From the NCBI GenBank assembly GCA_947384285.1, contig CANDGI010000007.1:43514-107513 (forward strand): a stretch of DNA of 64,000 nucleotides, written 5' to 3'. Position numbers and translations under genes: made by a program. The stretch's first letter is position 1. Each line of letters starts with the position of its first letter. The notes below the pieces were generated by a model. The model was not told where the DNA came from and searched no databases. It saw only the letters and a list, made by a program, of their open reading frames with translations. Source of the DNA: an uncultured Lachnospiraceae bacterium. GTDB lineage: Bacteria; Bacillota; Clostridia; Lachnospirales; Lachnospiraceae. Positions 20,393 through 34,012 of the stretch are shown one piece after another.

Positions 20393-20593
20393 ATGATGCC
20401 GATACCGTTTGAAGTAGGAGATATTGTCCGTCTGAAAAAAAAGCATCCCTGCGGCAGCCAGGAGTGGGAGGTGCTCCGGGTAGGAGCAGATTTCCGCCTG
20501 AAATGCCTGGGCTGCGGCCATCAGATGATGGTGGCAAGGAAAATGGTGGAAAAGAACACCAGGGGGATACGGAAAAGGGAGGAAAATGCATAG
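20393..20593 (+). CDS. DUF951 family protein
   Basis: A 66-residue protein (start at ATG 20393 or 20396, behind AAGGAGG). The sequence IPFEVGDIVRLKKKHPCGSQ, then WEVLRVGADFRLKCLGCGHQ with the C..C pair and PCG motif, is the standard DUF951 pattern widespread in Firmicutes. The protein is small, basic and probably nucleic-acid-binding (KOW-like), though its function is not established. It is coupled to the sirtuin gene. Confidence 0.85.
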   Translation: MMPIPFEVGDIVRLKKKHPCGSQEWEVLRVGADFRLKCLGCGHQMMVARKMVEKNTRGIRKREENA

Positions 20594-20611
20594 GGTTAAA
20601 GCGGACTTTTC

Positions 20612-20690
20612 ATATGCGAATGCGGACGGAAAGACAGGATAGCCTAGTCTGCGTGGCAAAGAGCCAGCCTTCTTTTCTGTTTGTACCCAG
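20612..20690. repeat. Dispersed palindromic repeat, copy C (degenerate)
   Basis: CAGGATAGCC followed by AGTCTGCGTGGCAAAGAGCC matches parts of copy A's reverse complement that lie more than 50 bases apart there, so this copy has an internal deletion. The GAATGCGGACGGAAAGA flank also matches the reverse complement of copy B. It lies between the DUF951 and hydrolase genes. Confidence 0.7.
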
Positions 20691-20754
20691 AATACTAACC
20701 TAGAGAAACCATAATTTATGAAAATAAAATAATTAATGTGCATAGGACATTGCA

Positions 20755-21903
20755 ATGAAAAAATTTCAAAAGAAGAGGAAAGTAATAAAAAAACAGCAAA
20801 GAATCGCCATAGCAGCAGGTATTACCATATCCCTGCTGTTGTTATTCTATATTTTACTGGTAAATTTCCTGGTAAGCGCCGCACTGGTTCCATCCTTTAT
20901 GGAAAAGCTGGAAGCATTTGAACGGATTACCAAGGACAGCTATGCAGCCCAGGTGCAGACCTCAGATATCAAAGGCAACCGACAGGAGGCTCTGAATGAA
21001 ACAAAGGAATGGCTTCAGGACGCCAGTCATCAGAAGATTTCAGCAAAGACAGAAGATGGATATACCTTGATTGCAGAGACGTTTCCAGCAGAAGGAATCC
21101 CAGATGCCAAGGAGAGCTTGGACACAGCGGAGATCTTCGGCGCAGAGAAGGCTGCGGAAGCAGAGAAAGCGCCTGGCACAAAGGAAGGTGTGGACATGGA
21201 AAGCGCTTCCCGCACAGGGGAAGAGAGCCATAAATGGGTGCTGCTGCTCCACGGATATACAGGCTGGAAGGAGGAGATGTATCCTTTCGCCTACTGGTAT
21301 CATAAGCAGGGGTTTCATGTGGTTGTGCCGGATTTGCGGTGCCAGGGGGAAAGCGAAGGGGATTTTATAGGCATGGGCTGGACAGACCATTTTGACAGTA
21401 TGCTGTGGATAGACTACATTCTTTCCCAGGATGAAAAGGCGCAGATTGTCCTTCACGGCCAGTCCATGGGTGCGGCAGCGGCGCTGATGATGACAGGAGA
21501 GGAGCTTCCAGACAACATACAGGCCGTAGTTTCCGACTGTGCTTATACCGATGCCTACCGTATGTTTGGAGAAAAAATCAAAGAATGGTTCGGGCTGCCC
21601 GCATTTCCGCTGGTGGATTCGGCATGTTTCATGCTGCGGCTGCGGGGAGGCTATGATTTAAAGGACGCATCTGCCTTGGAAGCAGTGAGAAAAAGCAGTA
21701 CGCCCACGCTTTTTATCCATGGGGATTCGGATGCCATGATATCTGTCCAGATGTCCAGGGAACTGTATGAGGCGGCAGCCTGCGAGAAAGAGCTTTTGAT
21801 TGTAGAAGGAGCGGGGCACGGGCAGGCGCAGGAAAAAGATCCAGATACATATTACCGTGCAATAGAAGAATTTTTAAATAAAATGCTTGAAAGCTGCAAA
21901 TAA
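20755..21903 (+). CDS. Membrane-anchored alpha/beta hydrolase
   Basis: A 382-residue protein with a basic N-terminus and one membrane segment (about residues 17-45), so the hydrolase domain is outside. The oxyanion motif is LLHGYTGWKEEM, the nucleophile elbow GQSMGAA, the acid HGDSDAMI and the base GAGHGQA, a complete Ser-Asp-His triad. A ~50-residue low-complexity Ala/Glu insert (about 105-155) separates the first strand from the core and is unusual. Relatives are esterases or peptidases of the BAAT/YqkD type. Substrate unknown. The rpsF promoter lies within its last codons. Confidence 0.85.
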   Translation: MKKFQKKRKVIKKQQRIAIAAGITISLLLLFYILLVNFLVSAALVPSFMEKLEAFERITKDSYAAQVQTSDIKGNRQEALNETKEWLQDASHQKISAKTEDGYTLIAETFPAEGIPDAKESLDTAEIFGAEKAAEAEKAPGTKEGVDMESASRTGEESHKWVLLLHGYTGWKEEMYPFAYWYHKQGFHVVVPDLRCQGESEGDFIGMGWTDHFDSMLWIDYILSQDEKAQIVLHGQSMGAAAALMMTGEELPDNIQAVVSDCAYTDAYRMFGEKIKEWFGLPAFPLVDSACFMLRLRGGYDLKDASALEAVRKSSTPTLFIHGDSDAMISVQMSRELYEAAACEKELLIVEGAGHGQAQEKDPDTYYRAIEEFLNKMLESCK

Positions 21904-22759: not shown

Positions 22760-23023
22760 ATGGCTTATAATAAAACTGAAAGAGGCGATTCTCCTATGAA
22801 GAGGAGAGGCGGAATGCGCAGAAGAAAAAAAGTCTGTGTATTTTGCGGCAAAGACAATGTGATTGATTATAAAGACACCAATAAGTTAAAGAGATACATT
22901 TCTGAGAGAGGTAAAATCCTTCCCAGAAGAATTACCGGAAACTGTGCAAAGCATCAGAGAGCCCTTACAGTTGCAATCAAGAGGGCTAGGCATATCTCTT
23001 TAATGCCCTATGTAACAGATTAA
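22760..23023 (+). CDS. rpsR: 30S ribosomal protein S18
   Basis: An 87-residue basic protein. [17 protein letters not shown] keeps the two-cysteine C-x-x-C pair found in the zinc-type (C+) S18, and [20 protein letters not shown] then [10 protein letters not shown] is the conserved C-terminus. It partners S6. Directly after its stop is a shortened copy of its own 3' end (23024-23071). Confidence 0.97.
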
Positions 23024-23071
23024 AGCATCAGAGAGCTCTTACAGTTGCAGGCAAGAGGGCAGCAGATTAAA
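23024..23071 (+). repeat. Partial duplicate of the rpsR 3' end
   Basis: AGCATCAGAGAGCTCTTACA, then GTTGCAGGCAAGAGGGC and AGCAGATTAA, copies rpsR from about 22950 but lacks about 28 bases from the middle. It starts one base after the stop and is not translated as a separate gene. Confidence 0.9.
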
Positions 23072-23088
23072 TGTAAGAAAAGATACAG

Positions 23089-23128
23089 AAGCAGGCCAAT
23101 CATCTTCGGGTGGTTCGTCTGCTTTTTT
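23089..23128 (+). terminator. Terminator of the rpsF-ssb-rpsR operon
   Basis: GCAGGCCAATCATC (23091-23104) and GGTGGTTCGTCTGC (23109-23122) fold around a TTCG tetraloop with some G-U pairs and one mismatch, followed by six T. Confidence 0.8.
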
Positions 23129-23216
23129 CTCTTATCGGAAAAGCCGTGTTTCCTGGATGCGGGAAAATGGCAGGAAAATGCGGAACTTCGATTAAGATGG
23201 TTTCTTTTCATTGTGG

Positions 23217-23222
23217 TATAAT
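23217..23222 (+). promoter_or_regulatory. Extended -10 promoter of the surface-polymer operon
   Basis: TATAAT at 23217-23222 preceded by TGG forms an extended -10. The -35 is poor (TTAAGA-like near 23192). It lies about 40 bases before the first gene and after the rpsR terminator. Confidence 0.55.
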
Positions 23223-23262
23223 TATAACTATGTTGTGGACATGCTTCAAAGGATGGGAAAAT

Positions 23263-24126
23263 ATGAGGCGAAAGGTTTTTGTTGGTCTTTTCTTGGCAGT
23301 TATTTTGTGTTTCATCGGGTTTGGAATATTTTGGAGCCAGCAGGGGATGGGAGAATTGTCTGTTTTTAACTGGGAGAAGGATGTGCTTACGGTTGAAAAT
23401 CCAGACTTTTTTTTCGATGAGCTTTCCAAAAGCAATATTTGTGCTGTATATCAATGGATTCCTTCTAAAATTACCGCCGAGGATATGTCGTCTTACCTAG
23501 AGAGCGCTTGTGCCCATGGAATTGACGTCTATCTGCTTACAGGGGATCCCAGCTGGGGACTGGAGGAAGATGGGGAAAGCATGGCCAGCGAAATTGTGCG
23601 CGCCCAGGAGATGAATGAGATGGCGCCAAAAGACGCCCAGATTAAAGGTATCGTTATGGACGTGGAGCCTTATCTTACAGATTACTGGGACAATGCGCCC
23701 AAACAGGTGATGGAGCTGTTTGCGTCAGGGCTGGCAGATGCCCGCCAAAAAGCCCAGGCTTACGGGTTGGAGTTTATCGTATGCATCCCTTATTTTTATG
23801 ACACGGAAGGATATAAGGATGAGCTGGAAACCATTATTGCAAAAGGATGTGACAGTGCAGCCGTAATGAATTACTACAAAGGGAAAGAGGAAGAACATAT
23901 TGCAGATGAGGCAGCATTGTCAAGAAAATATGGAAAAAAGCTGATTAATATCTATGAGCTGCAGCCTCCAAAGGGAAACTCCATCGTTGAAGCAAATACC
24001 TATTACCATGACGGGCTGGGTGCGGTTATGAAGAATGCAGCCCGGCTGAAATCTGTGTACAAGGGTGATATAAGGTTTGCCATCCACGATTATGATGCAT
24101 GGAAGGAAATGAAGGAAAATGAATGA
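23263..24126 (+). CDS. Membrane-anchored TIM-barrel-like (putative glycosidase) protein
   Basis: A 287-residue protein from ATG 23263 (AAAGGA upstream; earlier starts overlap the promoter). A membrane anchor lies at about residues 4-24, with the rest outside. The body has barrel-like alternation with acidic strand ends: KGIVMDVEPYLTDYW (a D-x-E pair), then LEFIVCIPYFYDTEGY, then AAVMNYYKG and IRFAIHDYDAW. This resembles uncharacterised glycoside-hydrolase-like proteins; no family can be named. It is first in a seven-gene operon, and its last eight bases overlap the VTC gene. Confidence 0.65.
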   Translation: MRRKVFVGLFLAVILCFIGFGIFWSQQGMGELSVFNWEKDVLTVENPDFFFDELSKSNICAVYQWIPSKITAEDMSSYLESACAHGIDVYLLTGDPSWGLEEDGESMASEIVRAQEMNEMAPKDAQIKGIVMDVEPYLTDYWDNAPKQVMELFASGLADARQKAQAYGLEFIVCIPYFYDTEGYKDELETIIAKGCDSAAVMNYYKGKEEEHIADEAALSRKYGKKLINIYELQPPKGNSIVEANTYYHDGLGAVMKNAARLKSVYKGDIRFAIHDYDAWKEMKENE

Positions 24127-24814
24127 AGTGCTGCGGCAGGAAAAAAAGTACCTGATTACAACGGAACAGATGTATCAGTACAGCCAGTATCTGCAGAAAG
24201 TCATGATGCCGGATTCCCACAATGGCGCGGAAGGCTATGAGATCCGCTCCCTCTATTTTGATACGCTGGATAACAAAGATTTTGTGGAAAAGGAGGAGGG
24301 AGTGGAGCTTAGAAGGAAGATTCGGTTAAGATGCTATCATCCCACAGATGATTTTGCCATGCTGGAAATGAAACAGAAGCAAGGCGCCATGCAGAAAAAG
24401 CGGTCCCTGCGCATGAAGAGGGAGGACGTAAAGCGGCTGGTAGACCGTGATTATGGGGTGCTGCTTGGATACCATGAGGAGTTTGCCGGGGAATGCTACG
24501 CACTGATGAATATGTATTGCTATATGCCAAAAGCAATTGTGGAGTATCAGCGGAAAGCATTTATTGCCAAGGAAAACAGGATACGCATCACGTTTGACCA
24601 TCATATTAAGGCAACGGAAAGCAATATGGACATTTTTTCGCCCCAGCTGCTGCAAAATATGGTTTTAGAGCCGTGCCTTACCGTTTTTGAAGTCAAATAC
24701 AATGGTTTTTTGTTAAGCTACATCAAAGATTTGCTCCAGGCCTGTGATAAAAGTGAGCTGTCTGTCAGCAAATACTGCCTGAGCCGCAGTGTCAGCACAC
24801 ATTACAGCTTTTAA
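24119..24814 (+). CDS. VTC-domain (polyphosphate polymerase-like) protein
   Basis: A 231-residue protein resembling the VTC domain of the triphosphate tunnel fold. The N-terminal RQEKKYLIT (the E-x-K strand), IRSLYFDT, the basic strand ELRRKIRLRCY, MLEMKQKQGAMQKKR, a late R-x-x-F-I (YQRKAFI) with RITFDHHI, and LEPCLTVFEVKYNG supply the tunnel-lining charged residues. In eukaryotes this domain makes polyphosphate from ATP; in bacteria, VTC-domain proteins often sit next to DUF4956 and CotH genes, as here, with unproven function. It overlaps the preceding gene by eight bases. Confidence 0.85.
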   Translation: MNEVLRQEKKYLITTEQMYQYSQYLQKVMMPDSHNGAEGYEIRSLYFDTLDNKDFVEKEEGVELRRKIRLRCYHPTDDFAMLEMKQKQGAMQKKRSLRMKREDVKRLVDRDYGVLLGYHEEFAGECYALMNMYCYMPKAIVEYQRKAFIAKENRIRITFDHHIKATESNMDIFSPQLLQNMVLEPCLTVFEVKYNGFLLSYIKDLLQACDKSELSVSKYCLSRSVSTHYSF

Positions 24815-24846
24815 ACAGGCAAATAATAATGGAGGGATAAAAAGGT

Positions 24847-25524
24847 ATGAAAGAATATTTACGGACAATTATGCTGGAAAGCGCAACGCTGGCTTTGGAG
24901 ACAATCTTATTAAATATTGTGGCTGCGGCGGTTTTTGGCATGGCCATTTATCTGTCATACTGGTATACGCATGCAGGGACTGCTTATAGCAAGAAGTTTA
25001 ATGTTTCCCTGATTACCCTTACAATTCTTACAGGCACGGTGATGACGGTCATCGGCAACAACATAGCGTTGTCCCTTGGCATGGTAGGCGCGCTTTCTAT
25101 TGTACGTTTCCGTACTGCCATCAAAGATTCCAGAGATACCACTTATATATTTTGGGCAATCATCGTTGGCATTTGCTGCGGTGTAAGTGATTATTATGTG
25201 GCTGCGGTGGGAAGCGCCGTGGTATTTCTTGTATTGCTTTTGTTTGGACGGGTTCGGAATGAAAGCCGTATTCTGCTGATTATCCGGGGCTCAAAGGATA
25301 GAAGCATAGATATGGAGCAGCTTGTGTTCCACTTTTTTGATGGAAGGCCGCTCCTGAAGGTGAAAAACACTACAAATGAAAATGTAGAATTGATTTATGA
25401 AATGACCAGGGCTGTTTATCAGAATGCTTATAAAAAGGAGAATGATGTCATAGACCAGCTATATGCGCTTGGGGGCGTTGAATATGTAAACTTTGTGACC
25501 CAGAGTGATGAGATCACAGGCTGA
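24847..25524 (+). CDS. DUF4956 membrane protein
   Basis: A 225-residue protein with three to four membrane segments (about residues 20-40, 55-80, 95-135) and a soluble C-terminal ~95 residues. The loop SLGMVGALSIVRFRTAIKDS then RDTTYIFWAI is the DUF4956 hallmark. AAGGAGGGATAAAAAGG-like sequence precedes the ATG. Function is unknown; the constant pairing with VTC-domain proteins suggests a membrane partner for that domain. Confidence 0.85.
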   Translation: MKEYLRTIMLESATLALETILLNIVAAAVFGMAIYLSYWYTHAGTAYSKKFNVSLITLTILTGTVMTVIGNNIALSLGMVGALSIVRFRTAIKDSRDTTYIFWAIIVGICCGVSDYYVAAVGSAVVFLVLLLFGRVRNESRILLIIRGSKDRSIDMEQLVFHFFDGRPLLKVKNTTNENVELIYEMTRAVYQNAYKKENDVIDQLYALGGVEYVNFVTQSDEITG

Positions 25525-25555
25525 CCAGATTGTATGGAAGCCGTAGGAGATGGCG

Positions 25556-26995
25556 ATGAAATCAAAATTAATATATATTGGAGCTGTTTTGATGGTTATC
25601 CTAACGGCGCTGGCAGGCAATCGGCTGAAAGATGCAGGCTTTGGGCAGAGATTTATGCAGCATCAGGAGGAACTGCCAGGGACAGAGCCGCCCCAGTCCG
25701 GGTTTGCCACCCACCTTCCGATTATTTCTATTGACACAGATAACAAAGCTATTCCAGGGGAAATTGTTCCAAAATATGGCATGCCCGAGACCTATGTATC
25801 CTGTAAGGCTGCCATCTACGACAGGGAGGGACAGTGGAATACCTTGCAGGACAAGGCGGACATACAGGAGGAAGGGCGGATTCGAATCCGTGGGAACACC
25901 AGCCGGAAATTCGATAAAAAATCATATCTGCTGAAATTCGGAACGGAGCAGGAAAACAAGGATGTTGCCGTGATGGGAATGAATAAGTCTGATAAGTGGG
26001 TGCTCCATGGCCCTTTCCTGGACCGTACGCTGCTGCGCAATTATATCTGTTACCATGTGGCAGGGCAGATGATGGAGTATGCGCCCCAGACAAGGTACTG
26101 CGAAATGTTTCTCAACGGGGAATACCAGGGGCTTTACCTTGCCGTTGAGCCGGTCAGTGTGGAAGAGGGCAGGCTGGAGCTGAGCGGGACAGCCAAGGAC
26201 AATCCCATGACAAGCTGGCTGGTTCGCTGGGACAGGGATGACAGGAATAGTAACAGGGTGGACAATTTTACCTATTATACGTATCAGGGAGGAATATCTT
26301 CCCTGGAATTGCTTTATCCGGGGAAAAAAGCCTGTACACCTGAGAAGAAAGCCTATGTGGAATCAGAAATCAGCGCCATAGAAAGGTCTTTGTATATGCG
26401 TGGGTCCGGCAGCAGGCTGAAGGGCTATTCCAGGCATATCGATATCGGTGAATTCGCCCGGTATTTTATTATCAATGAATTTTTTGAAAATATTGACGCA
26501 GGAAAATATTCTACCTATTATTATAAGGATTTGCGTGGAAAAGTAAAACCAGTAGTCTGGGATTTTAATAACGGAAGCGATAATTATATCCATTTCTCAA
26601 CGGATGGAGGCGGTTTTGTCATGATACAGTCCCCATGGCTTGGAGAAATGCTCAAAGATGAGGATTTTGTGGAGGAAGCCATCCGCCAGTATAAAGCATG
26701 GCGCAAAGATGTTCTGAGCAATGAGAACCTGGACCGCATGATTGATGAAACCGTGGCATATCTTGGGGATGCGGTGGAACGTAATTATGAGAAGTGGGGC
26801 TATGTATTTCTGCTGGAAAATGTTGACGCGGACAATTACCTGTCTCCGGTGGAGCGGAATTATACCAGCTACGAGGAGTCGGTGCAGCAATTGAAGAGGC
26901 AGATTCATGCCCGGGGAAGGTGGATGGACCGCAATATTGAGATTTTGCTCCAGTATTGCCGGGAATCCAAGAATGCTTTGCATATAAATTATTAA
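25556..26995 (+). CDS. CotH kinase family protein, membrane-anchored
   Basis: A 479-residue protein. Start 25556 has AGGAG six bases upstream; ATG 25550 is too close. An N-terminal membrane anchor is at about residues 3-20. The kinase-like core shows IRIRGNTSRKFDKKSYLLKF, then VLHGPFLDRTLLRNYICYHV, FLNGEYQGLYLAVEPV, FIINEFFENIDAG and the metal-binding KPVVWDFNNGSD, in the order seen in CotH. CotH phosphorylates spore-coat proteins in Bacillus. In this operon an extracytoplasmic kinase acting on a surface protein or glycan is a reasonable inference. Confidence 0.88.
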   Translation: MKSKLIYIGAVLMVILTALAGNRLKDAGFGQRFMQHQEELPGTEPPQSGFATHLPIISIDTDNKAIPGEIVPKYGMPETYVSCKAAIYDREGQWNTLQDKADIQEEGRIRIRGNTSRKFDKKSYLLKFGTEQENKDVAVMGMNKSDKWVLHGPFLDRTLLRNYICYHVAGQMMEYAPQTRYCEMFLNGEYQGLYLAVEPVSVEEGRLELSGTAKDNPMTSWLVRWDRDDRNSNRVDNFTYYTYQGGISSLELLYPGKKACTPEKKAYVESEISAIERSLYMRGSGSRLKGYSRHIDIGEFARYFIINEFFENIDAGKYSTYYYKDLRGKVKPVVWDFNNGSDNYIHFSTDGGGFVMIQSPWLGEMLKDEDFVEEAIRQYKAWRKDVLSNENLDRMIDETVAYLGDAVERNYEKWGYVFLLENVDADNYLSPVERNYTSYEESVQQLKRQIHARGRWMDRNIEILLQYCRESKNALHINY

Positions 26996-27009
26996 TGGGA
27001 GGCTTGGCA

Positions 27010-29184
27010 GTGAAGAAGTTTGTCGCTATCTGTACCGCGGTGGTTCTTGTTATGCTGGGAGTATGCTACGCGGTGTTTGTAAAAGGGTTTTACATTGATT
27101 TTAACGGCAGCAGCCAGGTCAGGGCTGATTTTACAACAGCTGGCCAGGAAATCCGAAAAGGGGATAGCAAGGAGGCTTTTCTCCTAAAAGGCGTGGATGT
27201 TTCTGCATCAGTGGCTGGGCATTATCTGGGGGATTTTGCAGCCGATGGGGATACCTATCTGCGGTGGCTTGGCAATATAAAGGATATGGGCGCCAATACG
27301 GTCCGGGTCTATACGATTATGGACGATGATTTTTATAACGCTTTCTATGAGTTCAACAGCAATGCAAAAAGCCCCCTTTACCTGATTCAGGGGATACGTG
27401 TCAGCGAGGCGGCAAACTATGGGATGGAGGACGCATCAGGGAAGGATTTTCTGGGACAGCTGAAGGAGGATGCCAAAAAGGCTGTGGATGTTGTGCATGG
27501 AAAATCTGTTGCATCGCTGAATGAGGGACAAGCAAATGGCGTGTATCTTAAGGATGTCTCAAAGTGGACGCTGGGATATCAGATTGGGGACGAGTGGTCC
27601 GGGGAGACAGTGGCTTACACGGATCACAATCCAAGGCTTGAGCATGTGTACCAGGGCAGGTACTTTACAACGGCACAGGATGCATCAAATTTTGAATGTA
27701 TCCTGGCGCAGGTGATGGATCAGCTGGTCAGATATGAGACAGATAAGTACAAATGCCAGCGGCTTGTGACCTTTATCTGTGACCCTTCCATGGATTTTCT
27801 GGAATATGAGGAAGAATATGCGAAGATGTTATCCAAGTTCTGCCATATTGACCCAGAGCATATACAGCCTACGGACAAGCTGAAGTCAGGGTATTTTGCC
27901 ACATACAAGCTATTCCGGTTCTGCGATGGCTTCCTTAAGTATTTAAGTGCAGGGCAGAAGCAGGAGCTTATGGATATCATGGATTCCGTCAGCCCCGCGT
28001 CCCGGTATGATGGGTATCTGGAGCTGTTAAAGCAGTACCATACCATGCCTATAGCGGCTGGTTTTCAATATTCAACGTCCAGAGGGAGGCTGAAGGCGGA
28101 TGAACCTGCGTTAACGGAAGAGCAGCAGGGAAGGAATCTTGTAAAGATGTATGACGACCTTGTTTCGGCAGGGTGGTCTGGAGGGTTTATCTCCACATGG
28201 CAGGATGCGTGGGAGCAGAAGTCCTGGAATACGGCCTTTGCCTCGGTTCTTCCCCAGAACAGCTTGTGGCATGATCTGCAGACGGCGGGGCAGAACTATG
28301 GCATAATGGCCTTTGTGCCTGGGGAGGAGGACGCTGTGTGCCTGGTAGATGGAGATGCCTCTGAGTGGTCCAAAGAGGATGAGGTGCTGGAAAGCCCGGA
28401 AGGGTATCTGCTCTCTGCCAAGTACGATGCGGAAGGGATATATCTGTTAATCCAGGGCAGTGGAATTTCAGGCAGGAGCCTCTATGCGCCTATTGACACT
28501 CTGCAGGAGAGGGGCGCGGCAGTTTACTCTGATGAAGAAGGGAAAGAAGAGTCTTTTGACCGGGACGCTGATTTTGTGCTTTGCGTGGATGGGACAGAAA
28601 ACAGCAGGCTTTTGGTCAATGGGTTTTCCGATGGGGCGCGCATTAACTTCATGGAAGAAGCAGATGGCAGGAATCCCTTTATCGATACGCCAGAGCATGA
28701 CGCCAGCACATTTTATGTGAGCCGCATGGCGGTAGAAAAGCCCCTCAACCTGGAGGATAAGATAGAGCTGCAGCGTCAGGCTGCGGCAGGTTTTGTTCCC
28801 AGCAATATTATGGATATTTATCCGCTGGAATTTTATGATACAGGACGTCTCGTCCCTGGCAATGGAAATCCAGAATCACCGGAATATCATTCACTGGCGG
28901 ACATCTGCTTTGGAAAGGATATGGTGGAGATACGCCTGCCATGGCTGATGTTGAATTTTTCCAATCCTTCTGCAAGGAAGATCCACGGGGATTATTACAG
29001 CTATTATGGCGTACAGTCCCAGGACATCGCCCGGCTTTGGATTGGGCTTGGGGAAAAGGGCAGCTCCCATAGGATTTCCATGGAGCCAGTACCGCTGGAG
29101 GGCTGGGGAGAAGGCGTTCCCTGCCATGAAAGGTTAAAGAAATCTTATTACATCATACAGGATAAGTGGAGAGAAGGGAAATGA
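27010..29184 (+). CDS. Large anchored glycosidase-like protein
   Basis: A 724-residue protein from GTG 27010 behind GGGAGG. A signal anchor lies at about residues 2-24. A TIM-barrel-like N-terminal half (about 60-440) contains FLLKGVDVSASVAGHYLGDF, WLGNIKDMGANTVRVYTIMD, LGYQIGDEWSG and SAGWSGGFISTWQDAWEQK, wording reminiscent of GH2/GH5-like glycosidases. The C-terminal half (about 440-724) is beta-rich with YLLSAKYDAEGIYLLIQG and a metal-site-like DRDADFVLCVDG, similar to carbohydrate-binding modules. No family can be assigned. It overlaps the next gene by ATGA. Confidence 0.65.
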   Translation: MKKFVAICTAVVLVMLGVCYAVFVKGFYIDFNGSSQVRADFTTAGQEIRKGDSKEAFLLKGVDVSASVAGHYLGDFAADGDTYLRWLGNIKDMGANTVRVYTIMDDDFYNAFYEFNSNAKSPLYLIQGIRVSEAANYGMEDASGKDFLGQLKEDAKKAVDVVHGKSVASLNEGQANGVYLKDVSKWTLGYQIGDEWSGETVAYTDHNPRLEHVYQGRYFTTAQDASNFECILAQVMDQLVRYETDKYKCQRLVTFICDPSMDFLEYEEEYAKMLSKFCHIDPEHIQPTDKLKSGYFATYKLFRFCDGFLKYLSAGQKQELMDIMDSVSPASRYDGYLELLKQYHTMPIAAGFQYSTSRGRLKADEPALTEEQQGRNLVKMYDDLVSAGWSGGFISTWQDAWEQKSWNTAFASVLPQNSLWHDLQTAGQNYGIMAFVPGEEDAVCLVDGDASEWSKEDEVLESPEGYLLSAKYDAEGIYLLIQGSGISGRSLYAPIDTLQERGAAVYSDEEGKEESFDRDADFVLCVDGTENSRLLVNGFSDGARINFMEEADGRNPFIDTPEHDASTFYVSRMAVEKPLNLEDKIELQRQAAAGFVPSNIMDIYPLEFYDTGRLVPGNGNPESPEYHSLADICFGKDMVEIRLPWLMLNFSNPSARKIHGDYYSYYGVQSQDIARLWIGLGEKGSSHRISMEPVPLEGWGEGVPCHERLKKSYYIIQDKWREGK

Positions 29185-30353
29185 GAAGATTCGGCATCAA
29201 CTACATGATTTATTTTTATATGTTTATCTGTCTCACTCTTCTCTTTTTTAATATTGCATATATTTTTTACCAGAAAAGAAGACAGAACATACAGGAGATC
29301 CGAGCCATGCACTGGAAGAAAGAATTGGCGGGCCTTTGGAAGGAATCAGACTGCACGGGACAGGCGTTCAAGGAGCAGCATGAACCAGACTGCACGAGGC
29401 AGGCATTCAAGGAGCAGCATGAACCAGGCTGCGAGGGACAGGCGTTTAAGGTGCACAAGAGAAGGCTGCGCAGGAAACTGAAACGGATAGACCAGCTGAT
29501 TGCCTACAACAGTGTGATGGAGGACTGCCTTGGAACCGGCGGTGTTTCGGATTATCTGGAGGAATGTTATGAGGATTTCCTGTTCCTGGCAGTAGAATAC
29601 GGGAACCGGGAAGCCATGGAGAGGGCTTTTTTTGCATATGTGATTTCACTGTATTACCCTTATATGGGGACGCCCAGGAAGCAGATGGTGAATATTCTCC
29701 TCAAATATATGGACGATGCCACGGTTTACTGCCGTGAAAATGTGCTGCTTGCCCTGTATGCCATCGGTGACGCAGTGGCGGTGGAGCATGCTTTTATGTA
29801 TTTGGACAGCAGGGGGCTTTATCACAGCCCAAAGCTGATATCGGATGGGCTGATGACATACAAGGGTGACAAGGAGGAGCTGGCGCGGCGGCTCTGGAGT
29901 AAGCGGAATGCATGGAATGAGTCTTTGGTTTTATCCGTCATCCAGTTTGTGACGCAGCTGGACGCAGATTTTTCAGAGGAATTTATCGGGGAATTGCAGA
30001 AAGATAATACATCCCTTGAGCATCGGTTTGCATATATCAGATATTTCCAGCGTCATGTGAAGCCTGGGCTGAAAGGATATCTGATAGACTGCCTAAAGCA
30101 GTATGATGCGTCAAATAACAGCCTTGCGATTGTCATAAGCCTTGCGCTTGGCAGCTATCCAGGAGAGGATACGGCTCTGGCGCTGGAGGGGGCGCTGCAA
30201 AGCAAGAGCTGGTACGTTAGGAAGAATGCTGCCGCATCGCTTCTGCGCATCGGATTACCAGAGGATGAGCTGAGACGGGTTTATGAAGCCAGTGATCGCT
30301 ACGGAAAAGAAATATTGGAATATGTGTCGGAAAGGCGTTTTGACACGGTTTAA
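29181..30353 (+). CDS. Membrane-anchored HEAT-repeat-like protein
   Basis: A 390-residue protein from ATG 29181, whose ATGA overlaps the previous stop. One membrane segment is at about residues 6-28, then a charged linker containing three in-frame copies of a 13-residue unit DCTGQAFKEQHEP (about 57-95). The remainder (about 110-390) is all helical with HEAT/armadillo-like units (SLALGSYPGEDTALALEGAL, SWYVRKNAAASLLRIGLPED). It probably scaffolds the glycosyltransferase or other members of the operon, an inference from fold and place. No catalytic motif is seen. Confidence 0.7.
   Translation: MRRFGINYMIYFYMFICLTLLFFNIAYIFYQKRRQNIQEIRAMHWKKELAGLWKESDCTGQAFKEQHEPDCTRQAFKEQHEPGCEGQAFKVHKRRLRRKLKRIDQLIAYNSVMEDCLGTGGVSDYLEECYEDFLFLAVEYGNREAMERAFFAYVISLYYPYMGTPRKQMVNILLKYMDDATVYCRENVLLALYAIGDAVAVEHAFMYLDSRGLYHSPKLISDGLMTYKGDKEELARRLWSKRNAWNESLVLSVIQFVTQLDADFSEEFIGELQKDNTSLEHRFAYIRYFQRHVKPGLKGYLIDCLKQYDASNNSLAIVISLALGSYPGEDTALALEGALQSKSWYVRKNAAASLLRIGLPEDELRRVYEASDRYGKEILEYVSERRFDTV
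29349..29465 (+). repeat. 39-base in-frame tandem repeat in the HEAT-like protein gene
   Basis: Three units of 39 bases encode DCTGQAFKEQHEP, DCTRQAFKEQHEP and a diverged GCEGQAFKVHKRR. The length is a multiple of three, unlike the intergenic duplications in this window. Confidence 0.9.
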
Positions 30354-30369
30354 AAGAGGTGGGATAGAT

Positions 30370-31800
30370 ATGGAACAGTTTGTCACATGCTTTTTTACAG
30401 GGGTAGGGGTTTTCTTTTTGGCCTATCTTCTATTATATGCATCGTATCTTTTTGCATCTGTGGCAGTCGGGGCGTTCCAGCTGTATAAACTGGAAAAGAT
30501 GTCGCAGATTAAAAATGAATTGAAGCATGAATTCTATTTTCCTGTATCAATTCTTGTGCCGGCATATAATGAGGAAGTTACAATCATAGAAAGCGTGGAG
30601 TCTCTTTTAAACCTGAAATACAAGCTGTATGAAATTATCGTGATAGACGACGGCTCCGCAGACCGCACCACAGAGCTTATGGTTGAGCATTTCCAGATGA
30701 AAAAGGTAAGCAGGCCGATTCGGCGTGTGGTAGAGTGTGAAATGCAGGAGGCTGTCTACGAGTGCAGGGCGGAGAATATCAAAATTACATTGATACGGAA
30801 GAAAAACGGCGGCAAGGGAGATGCGCTGAACATGGGGATTAATGCATCGGAGTATCCCTATTTTTTGTGTATGGATGCAGATTCCATGCTGCAGGATGAT
30901 TCCATTGAACGGATTGTCCGGCCTGTGATGGAGGATGACAATGTGGTGGCGGTAGGAGGCTTAATCCGGGTTGCCCAATGCGTGGTGATGGAGAACGGGG
31001 AAATTGCAGGGTACCATCTGCCGTGGAATATCCTTTTGAGCATGCAGGCTATGGAGTATGACCGCTCCTTTCTGGCCTCCAGAATTTTATTGGACAGTTT
31101 TAACGGCAACCTGATTATCTCAGGCGCTTTTGGGCTGTTCAAGAAGGAAGTGGTGGTGGCGGTGGGCGGATATGACAGGCATACATTGGGGGAGGATATG
31201 GAACTGGTGGTAAAGCTCCATGCATTCTGCAGGAACAATCAGATGGGATATACCATCCGGTATGAGCCGAGTGCCATATGCTGGAGCCAGGTGCCGTCTT
31301 CCTTTAAGGATTTGAAGTCCCAGAGAAGGAGATGGCATCTGGGGCTTTTCCAGTGCATGTGGAAGTACAGGCACTTATGCCTGAACAGCCGGTATGGGTT
31401 GCTGGGGACGATTTCTTATATGTATTATCTGCTTTATGAGCTTTGTTCTCCTGCTATTGAGATTTTCGGCCTTTTTACGATTCTATTGGCGGTTCTGCTG
31501 GGAAGGCTGAACGTGGGGTTTATGCTGAAATTGTATCTGCTTTATACAGCTTACGGGGCGGTTTTGACGATGACGGCCTTTTTTCAGCGGATTTATTCCC
31601 AGAATGTGAAAATCAGCGTGGGAGATATTGTTAAGGCATGTGTCATGTGTGTGGCAGAGAATGTATTTTTCAGGCTGGTGCTTGATTTTATACGCAGTAC
31701 GGCATTTTTCGGATACCGGAAGCGGAAATTGGTGTGGGGAAAAATTAAGAGGACGAAGCTTGAGGAGGGAGATGCAAATAAAGATTCGTCTGTATTGTAA
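30370..31800 (+). CDS. Family 2 glycosyltransferase, membrane processive-type
   Basis: A 476-residue protein from ATG 30370 (GAGGTGGG upstream). Membrane segment(s) lie at about residues 5-38. The GT2 domain has VSILVPAYNEEVTI, VIDDGSADRT (about 91-100), GGKGDALNMGI, CMDADSM (the D-x-D site), LGEDMELVVKL (catalytic Asp region) and SQRRRWHLG, the Q/R-x-x-R-W motif of processive synthases such as PgaC/BcsA. Three or four C-terminal membrane segments follow (GLLGTISYMYYLLYEL, LFTILLAVLL). It would polymerise a sugar into or across the membrane. It closes the seven-gene operon. Confidence 0.9.
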   Translation: MEQFVTCFFTGVGVFFLAYLLLYASYLFASVAVGAFQLYKLEKMSQIKNELKHEFYFPVSILVPAYNEEVTIIESVESLLNLKYKLYEIIVIDDGSADRTTELMVEHFQMKKVSRPIRRVVECEMQEAVYECRAENIKITLIRKKNGGKGDALNMGINASEYPYFLCMDADSMLQDDSIERIVRPVMEDDNVVAVGGLIRVAQCVVMENGEIAGYHLPWNILLSMQAMEYDRSFLASRILLDSFNGNLIISGAFGLFKKEVVVAVGGYDRHTLGEDMELVVKLHAFCRNNQMGYTIRYEPSAICWSQVPSSFKDLKSQRRRWHLGLFQCMWKYRHLCLNSRYGLLGTISYMYYLLYELCSPAIEIFGLFTILLAVLLGRLNVGFMLKLYLLYTAYGAVLTMTAFFQRIYSQNVKISVGDIVKACVMCVAENVFFRLVLDFIRSTAFFGYRKRKLVWGKIKRTKLEEGDANKDSSVL

Positions 31801-31823
31801 GAATCGCAAGAAAGTGGTATAAT
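31795..31823 (+). promoter_or_regulatory. Sigma-A promoter of gdpP-rplI-dnaB
   Basis: TTGTAA (31795-31800), 17 bases, then TATAAT (31818-31823) with an extended TGG. The -35 overlaps the stop of the glycosyltransferase gene. A ~110-base leader with a small hairpin (ATGCAGC/GCTGCAT, about 31860-31882) follows. Confidence 0.75.
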
Positions 31824-31942
31824 ATGACGATAGCAAAGAGCTGTGCCGAACCTGTCCATAAATGCAGCTGTGAATGGCTGCATGTGGCGCTGTAAACCAA
31901 GAACCTGAAAATCAGGCATGAACAACGAAGGTAGGAAGATAA

Positions 31943-34012
31943 ATGAAAAGAAAAAATTACCCTGGAAACCAGTTTAAGAACTACATGTACTGGCCTCTGA
32001 TGCTGACCGTTTTTATTATACTGATGAATGTGCCTTTGTATTTTTTTGACCAGAAGGCTGGCATCTGCGTCTCCGTATTTGCATCTGTATATTTTCTTGT
32101 GGTGCTGATTGTCTTTATCGCCAACAAATCAGTGCTGCGCAATGAGGTCATCAATTTTGCCACCCAGTATGGGACAATCCAGAAAAAGCTGCTGAATGAG
32201 TTTGAGATCCCATACGCATTGCTGGATTATAACAGCAAGATTTTGTGGATGAACGAAGCCTTTGCCGGGATTACAGAGAAGGGCAAATCATATCACAAAT
32301 CCATTGCCACGATTTTTCCCTCCGTCACCAGGGAGCTTTTGGAGCGGGAAGAGCACAATGACAACATACATGTAAAATGGAAAGGAAAGGTTTACCGGGT
32401 AAGCGCTGGTAAGATTCATTTTGAGGAGGAACCAGGAAATAGCGGCAGCCCGGCAAAGGAGCCGAAGGCTGAGACGGAGGAGAACCCCTATCTCATTGCC
32501 CTGTACCTTTTTGATGAGACAAAGCTCCATGAGAGCATCCAGGAAATCCAGGATCAGCAGCTTGTGGCTATGCTGATTTATATTGACAATTATGAGGAAG
32601 CCATGGACAGCGTAGAGGAAGTAAAACGGTCTTTGCTGGTGGCTTTGGTGGACCGTAAGGTAAGCAAGTATTTTTCAGAGCGGGACAGCGTGATAAAGAA
32701 AATTGAAAAAGATAAGTATTTCGTTGTGTTCAAACAAAAATATTTAGAGGAGCTTATCGAGGATAAGTTCAGCATCCTGGAGGATGTAAAGACGATAAAG
32801 GTAGGAAATGAAATGGCGGTCACCTTAAGCATAGGCGTGGGCGTCAGTATGAACAGCTATAACCAGAAATACGAGTATGCCCGTATGGCCATTGACCTTG
32901 CACTGGGCAGGGGCGGCGATCAGGTAGTGGTTAAGGAAGGGGAAAAAATATCTTATTTCGGCGGAAAATCCAGGCAGGTGGAGAAGATGACCCGGGTGAA
33001 GGCGAGAGTGAAGGCTCATGCCCTCCGGGAGATTATTGAGAGCCGGGAAGAAGTGTTTATTATGGGACACAGCATCAGCGATATGGATGCTTTTGGAGCA
33101 GCCGTGGGGATTTTCTGCGCCACCCAGGTGCTGGGGAAAAAGGCGCATATTGTTTTGGACGAGGTGACCTCTTCCCTCAGGCCCATGAAGGAATGCTTTA
33201 CCGAGGAAAAAGGGTATCCGGCGGATATGTTTTTAAGAAGCGAGCAGGCCTTGGAAATGGCGGATAACCGGAGCGTTGTTGTGGTGGTTGATACAAACAG
33301 GCCCAATTACACGGAATGCCCGGAATTGCTGAAAAAGACAAAGACCATTGTGGTATTTGACCACCACAGGCAGGGCAGCGAGGTCATTGAGAATGCGGTG
33401 CTCTCCTATATTGAATCTTACGCGTCCTCTACCTGTGAGATGGTAGCGGAGGTTCTGCAGTATTTCAATGAAAATATTCATCTGAAATCAAATGAGGCAG
33501 ACAGCATTTACGCAGGAATTTTAATTGATACCAATAATTTCATGACGAAGACGGGCGTAAGGACTTTTGAGGCGGCGGCCTATCTGCGAAGATGCGGGGC
33601 AGAGGTAACAAGGGTCCGCAAGCTCCTTCGAGACGACATGGCAGCTTACAAGGCCAGGGCGGAAGCAGTGCGCCATGCAGAGGTTTACCGGGGTGCATTT
33701 GCCATCTCTATCTGCCCGGCAGACCGGGATGTGGAAAGCCCTACCATTGCAGGCGCCCAGGCGGCAAATGAGCTTTTGAATATTGTAGGGATTAAGGCTT
33801 CCTTTGTACTTACCGAATACAATGGGAAGATTTATATCAGTTCCCGCTCCATTGACGAAATCAACGTACAGTTGATTATGGAACGTCTTGGGGGCGGCGG
33901 GCATTTGAATGTGGCGGGCGCCCAGATGACAGACTGCAGCGTGGCAGAAGCCAAGAGACGCATTCAGGTGACCTTAGACAGGATGTTAAAGGAAGGAGAC
34001 ATAGAAGTATGA
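31943..34012 (+). CDS. gdpP: Cyclic-di-AMP phosphodiesterase, GdpP type
   Basis: A 689-residue protein with two N-terminal membrane segments (about residues 15-35 and 38-58), a PAS-like domain (about 75-200), a degenerate GGDEF domain (about 210-330), then the DHH domain with [28 protein letters not shown] and ILIDTNNF, and DHHA1 with [12 protein letters not shown]. The GGDEF signature is absent ([13 protein letters not shown]), normal for GdpP. It breaks down the second messenger c-di-AMP and so tunes potassium and osmolyte uptake and wall stress responses. The gdpP-rplI-dnaB order is conserved in Firmicutes; it overlaps rplI by ATGA. Confidence 0.95.

Follow-up and report, generated by a model that had tools for sequence, protein, structure and literature searches.

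Analysis of a 64,000-nucleotide stretch from an uncultured Lachnospiraceae bacterium (contig CANDGI010000007.1; hereafter the window) showed seven genes on the + strand between positions 23263 and 31800, in confirmation of a preliminary description of the letters. The first gene (23263 to 24126) encodes a 287-amino-acid (aa) protein that has an N-terminal membrane anchor, looks glycosidase-like by eye, and falls in no named family. It is followed by genes for a 231-aa VTC domain protein with a polyphosphate-polymerase type tunnel (24119 to 24814; PF09359, 8.8e-44), a 225-aa DUF4956 membrane protein (24847 to 25524; PF16316, 4.1e-14), and a 481-aa CotH-type protein, a predicted kinase, with an N-terminal signal or anchor (25550 to 26995; PF08757, 5.7e-60), the three together referred to here as the trio. 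The last three genes encode a 724-aa GH72/GH2-like exported protein (27010 to 29184; PF03198, 8e-4, below the cut-off), a 390-aa HEAT-repeat protein with one N-terminal membrane segment and then KRR (29181 to 30353; PF13646, HEAT_2, 1.1e-7), and a 476-aa processive GT2 synthase (30370 to 31800; PF00535, 2.4e-28), the Pfam scans of these three beginning at 27004, 29166, and 30361, respectively. The VTC, DUF4956, CotH, HEAT_2, and GT2 matches were above the Pfam cut-offs. The overlaps reported earlier were located at gene 1/VTC (8 bases) and at the end of the GH72-like gene (29184), where the HEAT gene starts with ATG at 29181 (ATGA). The GT2 start is most likely the ATG at 30370, 16 bases past the HEAT gene, and not 30283. 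Hydrophobicity analysis gave one N-terminal hydrophobic segment each in gene 1, CotH, GH72-like, and HEAT proteins, several in DUF4956 and in GT2, and none in VTC. By this arrangement, gene 1, CotH, and the GH72-like protein would face outward, and VTC and the HEAT repeats would face the cytosol.

The order VTC-DUF4956-CotH-GH72-like-HEAT-GT2 was found consecutively on one strand, with each gene scoring at least 100 bits, in 51 of 106 loci, 48 of them distinct (GT2 identity below 97%). Because this six-gene order recurs in 50 loci besides the window, chance is excluded, and the conservation that the preliminary description had proposed to check was thereby found. The 106 loci are the window, 25 fetched loci, and 80 titled loci; since the titled loci were picked by DUF4956 similarity, the frequency of the operon is not readable from them, and because many contigs stop near the operon, counts of missing neighbors are lower bounds. 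The fetched loci derive from a search in which the GH72-like protein matched in 25 of 299 genomes of the family: 24 such loci were taken (two from G250, with G147, represented by two contig-end pieces, and the window's own genome omitted), and the 25th is the second VTC locus of that own genome. By title, the holders of the order are Lachnospiraceae, Oscillospiraceae, Bacilli, Christensenellaceae, Tissierellaceae, and a Gordonibacter metagenome-assembled genome, the last of which belongs to the Actinomycetota. For instance, the whole operon is present in Diplocloster agilis and Neglectibacter timonensis, and the trio in Asaccharospora irregularis. A homologue of gene 1 was found in 13 of 26 loci, the window counted, and lies downstream in two of them (L053 and L054). 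In one locus (L048:9004-14183), opposite-strand genes interrupt the GH72-like gene of the operon.

The order in the window matches that printed for the Clostridium perfringens locus NELoc-2 (CP4_0458-0468; gene table in PMC2879425), and the gene set is therefore not new. As judged by order, name, and length in that table, NELoc-2 has a 348-aa protein, a VTC protein, and a 226-aa "tubulin/FtsZ" protein, which has the position and length of DUF4956, then a second such pair, and continues with CotH (497 aa), a 685-aa protein, a HEAT protein (377 aa), and a GT2 (466 aa). The order VTC-DUF4956-CotH-large protein-HEAT-GT2 is thus shared, by order and lengths only. Unlike the window, NELoc-2 carries a sigma factor and, together with a resolvase, the VTC pair in duplicate; a polysaccharide deacetylase was reported for it in 18 of 23 strains in the accessible part of PMC11677781. 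Since the operon is of the type of this published, necrotic-enteritis-associated locus, its product is of veterinary relevance. The trio was likewise already described, in the available parts of PMC7112168 and PMC12345266, as accessory genes of the Gram-positive Pel locus (cotH/PPP/DUF4956/DUF4832), where it also stands beside a polysaccharide synthase, but the synthase set of the window is GT2 with HEAT and GH72-like proteins and not Pel. Hence, of the term "uncharacterised" used in the preliminary description, the part concerning function stands, as our literature search found no functional study of this gene set, and the part concerning the gene set and the trio does not. The available text of PMC12345266 reports that synteny of the trio was not found outside Pel; contrary to this, it was found here with GT2-HEAT loci and with PilZ-GT2 loci. 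One of the latter (L090) carries MBOAT and AlgX-like genes by Pfam, and such an acyltransferase cluster was present in 14 of 80 loci. Among the papers found to name DUF4956, as far as their text was accessible, none also used the name VTC, but PMC7112168 names a poly-phosphate polymerase together with DUF4956.

The VTC domain of the window scored 150.3 bits against a curated cut-off of 23. In a profile alignment with the PDB, residues R6, K10, R69, R71, K85, K94, and R145 align with the tunnel of eukaryotic Vtc4, these seven basic positions being its tunnel residues; E191 and K218 fall outside the alignment. The seven residues do not vary among the 22 pairs compared (the window, the second copy in its own genome, and 20 others), nor do G81, S84, R87, F88, R89, G108, and G112 of DUF4956. 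Whereas Vtc4 shares the tunnel domain and its basic residues with the window protein, no membrane part was found on the VTC polypeptide of the window; DUF4956 adjoins as a separate chain.

Raw counts in 299 genomes of the phylum placed VTC (55 hits) and DUF4956 (54 hits) in the identical 46 genomes, including G552, whose DUF4956 (29.8 bits) is just short of the cut-off of 30.6. For 52 of the 55 VTC hits, a same-strand DUF4956 lay no more than 1.5 kb away. The exceptions were G434 (same contig, but separated by CotH), G360 (each of the two close to the start of a contig), and G565:C23 (truncated). A draw of 137 genomes from the class, which has six VTC genomes in common with the phylum draw, gave both proteins in 69 genomes, VTC only in 4 (three partial matches and one contig end), and a sub-threshold DUF4956 only in 1. 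Here, 81 of 92 VTC hits were adjacent to DUF4956. Of the 11 that were not, seven are partial matches (G565, G631, G714, G698, G695, G628, and G745), one is at a contig end (G649), one has DUF4956 on the same contig, 1.9 kb apart (G637), and two have it on another contig (G685 and G659). Both families also matched in the same 3 of 14 control genomes. VTC and DUF4956 are thus paired nearly one to one and are rarely apart. These co-occurrence and adjacency counts are new here, and the pairing assigns a defined partner to DUF4956, itself a domain of unknown function.

The window CotH belongs to its family (PF08757, 203.9 bits, above the cut-off), and kinase activity is predicted. D316 and W337-D338 are invariant in 20 of 20 proteins, and N340 stands in place of the second Asp of W-D-x-D, as it does in most other exported CotH proteins compared; the conserved Asp residues are presumably catalytic. 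Together with the VTC tunnel and the GT2 D-x-D, this site was among the residues proposed earlier for inspection, and all were kept. Because its N terminus is hydrophobic, the protein is predicted to be exported. In the phylum draw, CotH was found in 41 of 299 genomes (one under the cut-off), and the hits merged to 53 genes after exclusion of a fragment (G541:C23, 25.1 bits). A VTC gene lay within 6 kb of 33 of the 53, and all 33 have a hydrophobic N terminus. Four intact CotH proteins without one are 365 to 373 aa long, a spore-coat-like size, and none is near VTC. Exported CotH occurred in 37 of 299 genomes, with G359:C21 (internal stop) and G473 (20.7 bits, internal stop) not counted, and 36 of the 37 have VTC. 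In the class draw, VTC was present in 51 of 56 CotH genomes and DUF4956 too in 50; the export test there covered the CotH proteins of four of the five VTC-less genomes. A prior prediction that these would be short and unexported failed, as the proteins of G623, G640, and G735 are of the exported type; the remaining two are G689 (26.2 bits), which has no hydrophobic N terminus, and G648, which is under the cut-off at 19.3 bits.

Two alternative explanations bear on this distribution. A spore-coat system built on CotH would agree with the origin of the CotH name, and the preliminary description had proposed a spore test, yet all four intact, unexported, spore-coat-sized proteins lie away from VTC, and the trio is present in nonsporulating streptococci according to the accessible text of PMC7112168; we consider this very improbable. 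Alternatively, VTC and DUF4956 may make polyphosphate that is either stored or exported, serving as part of the matrix or as a reserve of counter-ions, with CotH an unrelated passenger of envelope loci. This is unlikely in view of the 33 CotH genes that lie close to VTC, all of the exported type, although CotH is absent from 9 of the 46 genomes with VTC and DUF4956, and the second pair of the window's own genome sits with a Cthe_2159 protein while the only CotH of that genome is in the window operon.

The GT2 synthase retains the processive motifs D, D-x-D, (T/G)ED (GED in the window), and QxxRW (QRRRW), which are invariant in a core set of 20. Its best NCBIfam match, and the top named family with which it shares these motifs, is PgaC/IcaA (TIGR03937), but the score of 151.6 bits misses the cut-off of 422.3. 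Cellulose synthase (BcsA/CcsA) was rejected, as a PilZ match was absent by Pfam and CelA scored 40.1 bits against a cut-off of 699.1. Pfam matches of the seven genes included none of the Pel type (pelDEADAFG), in a search limited to these genes and in which Pel models were not run. A lead to mixed-linkage beta-glucan was also dropped, since the R. ilealis synthase is, in the available part of PMC10374906, a PilZ-bearing GT2, unlike that of the window. HEAT and GT2 are fused in locus L047, which supports contact between them. In L042, GT2 is fused to a GGDEF-EAL protein; of the 48 distinct loci, 24 have an EAL protein and 4 a polysaccharide deacetylase at a distance of up to 5 kb, the window having neither in that range. 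Because of this fusion and these neighbors, the sequences suggest a cyclic di-GMP-linked exopolysaccharide, perhaps amino-sugar based, as the GT2 product. The surface-polymer character given to the operon in the preliminary description was supported by the intact motifs, by these neighbors in some relatives, by the conserved order, and by the retained site residues of VTC and CotH.

The same cannot be said of the trimming ascribed to the GH72-like protein. Its GH72 match (PF03198) reached 19.2 bits against a cut-off of 25.9, and it is thus not placed among the GH72 glucanosyltransferases. A profile of its family weakly matches the GH2-like PDB entries 9fz9 (E = 0.0041) and 9g4n (E = 0.021), with an alignment that spans an E-F-G nucleophile stretch; single VTC or GH72-like sequences, when run against the PDB, yielded no useful match, and profiles did better. 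Where 9fz9 and 9g4n differ (Glu/Ala), the alignment alone would point to a nucleophile mutant, and the literature search found no papers naming 9FZ9, 9G5G, or 9G4N. Across the 48 loci, the predicted nucleophile column holds E in 34, D in 2, and G, S, or A in 12. The window protein retains the predicted acid/base Glu and has Gly at the nucleophile, which is lost in all 11 members of its clade. Because of this loss, trimming by the window protein is unlikely; it probably does not work as a retaining hydrolase and may instead bind or guide the chain. For gene 1, the sole Pfam match was sub-threshold (PLDc_2, 0.053) and the PDB match was weak (E = 0.38), but D133 and E135 are invariant in 13 of 13 homologues.

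On balance, the operon appears to be a synthase-dependent exopolysaccharide machine combined with a phosphate module, an explanation that we favor with some reservation. GT2 with HEAT probably polymerizes and extrudes a glycan, the best guess being a polymer of N-acetylhexosamine, and the exported proteins probably handle the chain. VTC, as a cytosolic tunnel enzyme, and DUF4956, in the membrane, might form a split polymerase-translocase, a counterpart of eukaryotic Vtc4 in which the tunnel and the membrane portion would be on separate polypeptides. Their pairing and the conservation of the tunnel are evident from the sequences; any enzymatic activity, export, or role as a donor is conjectural. 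The two proteins might use ATP to make polyphosphate or a similar phosphate donor and pass it across the membrane, where exported CotH, as one consumer, could use it to phosphorylate the polymer, the GH-like partners, or other surface proteins. Taken by itself, this relay from VTC and DUF4956 to CotH is proposed tentatively. It is an equally tentative suggestion from the genomic comparison that VTC, DUF4956, and exported CotH, with polyphosphate or a like donor replacing ATP, form a general, portable system for extracytoplasmic phosphorylation that has been attached to various synthases (GT2-HEAT, Pel, and PilZ-GT2 with acyltransferases). The literature searched, as far as its text was available, gave no answer on the role of bacterial VTC or on the phosphate donor of an extracytoplasmic kinase, and the split between exported and unexported CotH turns the matter into a concrete hypothesis that an assay can decide.

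Several observations weigh against the exopolysaccharide-plus-phosphate explanation. First, a search of the surrounding 5 kb gave no deacetylase in 44 of the 48 loci, the window among them. Second, the association is not complete: exported CotH is missing from 10 of the 46 VTC genomes of the phylum draw, VTC and DUF4956 are on different contigs in G685 and G659 and a DUF4956 gene has no VTC beside it in G724:C13 (class draw), and the co-occurrence counts are uncorrected for kinship. Exported CotH without VTC also occurs in G370 (phylum draw) and in G623, G640, and G735 (class draw), and these four exceptions mean that the rule of exported CotH with VTC is strong but not strict. Third, in Streptococcus intermedius, according to the available part of PMC12345266, deletion of the VTC-type gene left aggregation with no reported loss, whereas deletion of the DUF4956-type gene led to more Pel and deletion of CotH to less; the latter two deletions lowered aggregation by more than 50% in one medium. 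Because a simple relay predicts like phenotypes, these fit it poorly.

The opposite effects on Pel, which was still made, would be accommodated if the trio were a control device in which DUF4956 senses a cytosolic ligand through its C-terminal domain and tunes the synthase with VTC and CotH, with no decoration of a polymer or surface protein. The ACT domain assigned to the DUF4956-type protein in the accessible text of PMC12345266 points the same way, as does the presence of another control layer, the EAL proteins, in 24 of 48 loci. Yet CotH is predicted to be exported and so would not act directly on the cytosolic domain of the synthase, the conserved VTC tunnel residues point to catalysis, and the VTC-DUF4956 pair is found beside other partners too. 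Such a device is possible but rather doubtful.

Some further loci of the pair were observed. In the window's own genome, the second VTC-DUF4956 pair (G000:C21, ∼20400 to 21900; L057:10430-11852) has no CotH beside it, follows a gene that looks histidine kinase-like by eye, and precedes a gene for a Cthe_2159 carbohydrate-binding protein. The DUF4956 loci L108:9205-14181 and L116 have a tandem CotH-like pair with other glycosyltransferase genes adjoining (GT1 and GT8 by Pfam in L108). In four Paenibacillus loci (L121, L124, L127, and L131), a VTC-DUF4956-CotH set is preceded by a divergently oriented gene; these upstream genes belong to one cluster, and the one in L127 is purple-acid-phosphatase-like by Pfam.

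At the operon boundaries, the flanking genes are presumably rpsR on the upstream side and a GdpP-like gene on the other. A candidate operon promoter of the extended -10 type noted earlier (TG-N-TATAAT) is indeed present at 23214 to 23222 (+), with no -35 match, but the promoter scan listed no + strand promoter there. The scans gave a terminator-like hairpin after rpsR (23107 to 23121) and a promoter-like site preceding the next gene past the operon (31795 to 31823), which are consistent with the operon being a separate unit; the excess of scanned sites over shuffled sequences was slight (24 versus 15.0, standard deviation 3.7, and 12 versus 7.9, standard deviation 3.0). Transfer was also considered on the basis of base composition, which gave no signal, the G+C content being 0.472 in the operon and 0.458 in the window.

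Within the genus, the rpsR-gdpP slot (23023 to 31943 in the window) varies in its polymer operon (congener loci L190 to L217). Of 28 congeners, 15 have there an exosortase XrtG-type operon that includes the GT2, 3 (G601, G611, and G616) have fragments of that operon, and 1 (G595, which by GdpP is the closest, at 90%) has a GH72-like remnant; the slot is empty in 4 (gaps of -4 to 195 bases) and could not be resolved in 5. VTC and CotH were found in none of the 28 in the stretch read, which was short in some. The XrtG operon (TIGR03111 GT2) has the GH72-like protein and the slot in common with the window lineage, and in L050 it differs from the window in having no VTC, DUF4956, CotH, or HEAT gene. 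In the XrtG-type operons L050:281-10746 and L052, the predicted nucleophile Glu of the GH72-like protein is intact, and the presence of this protein there means that it serves two synthase types. It is likely that one polymer machine was replaced by another in the lineage of the window.

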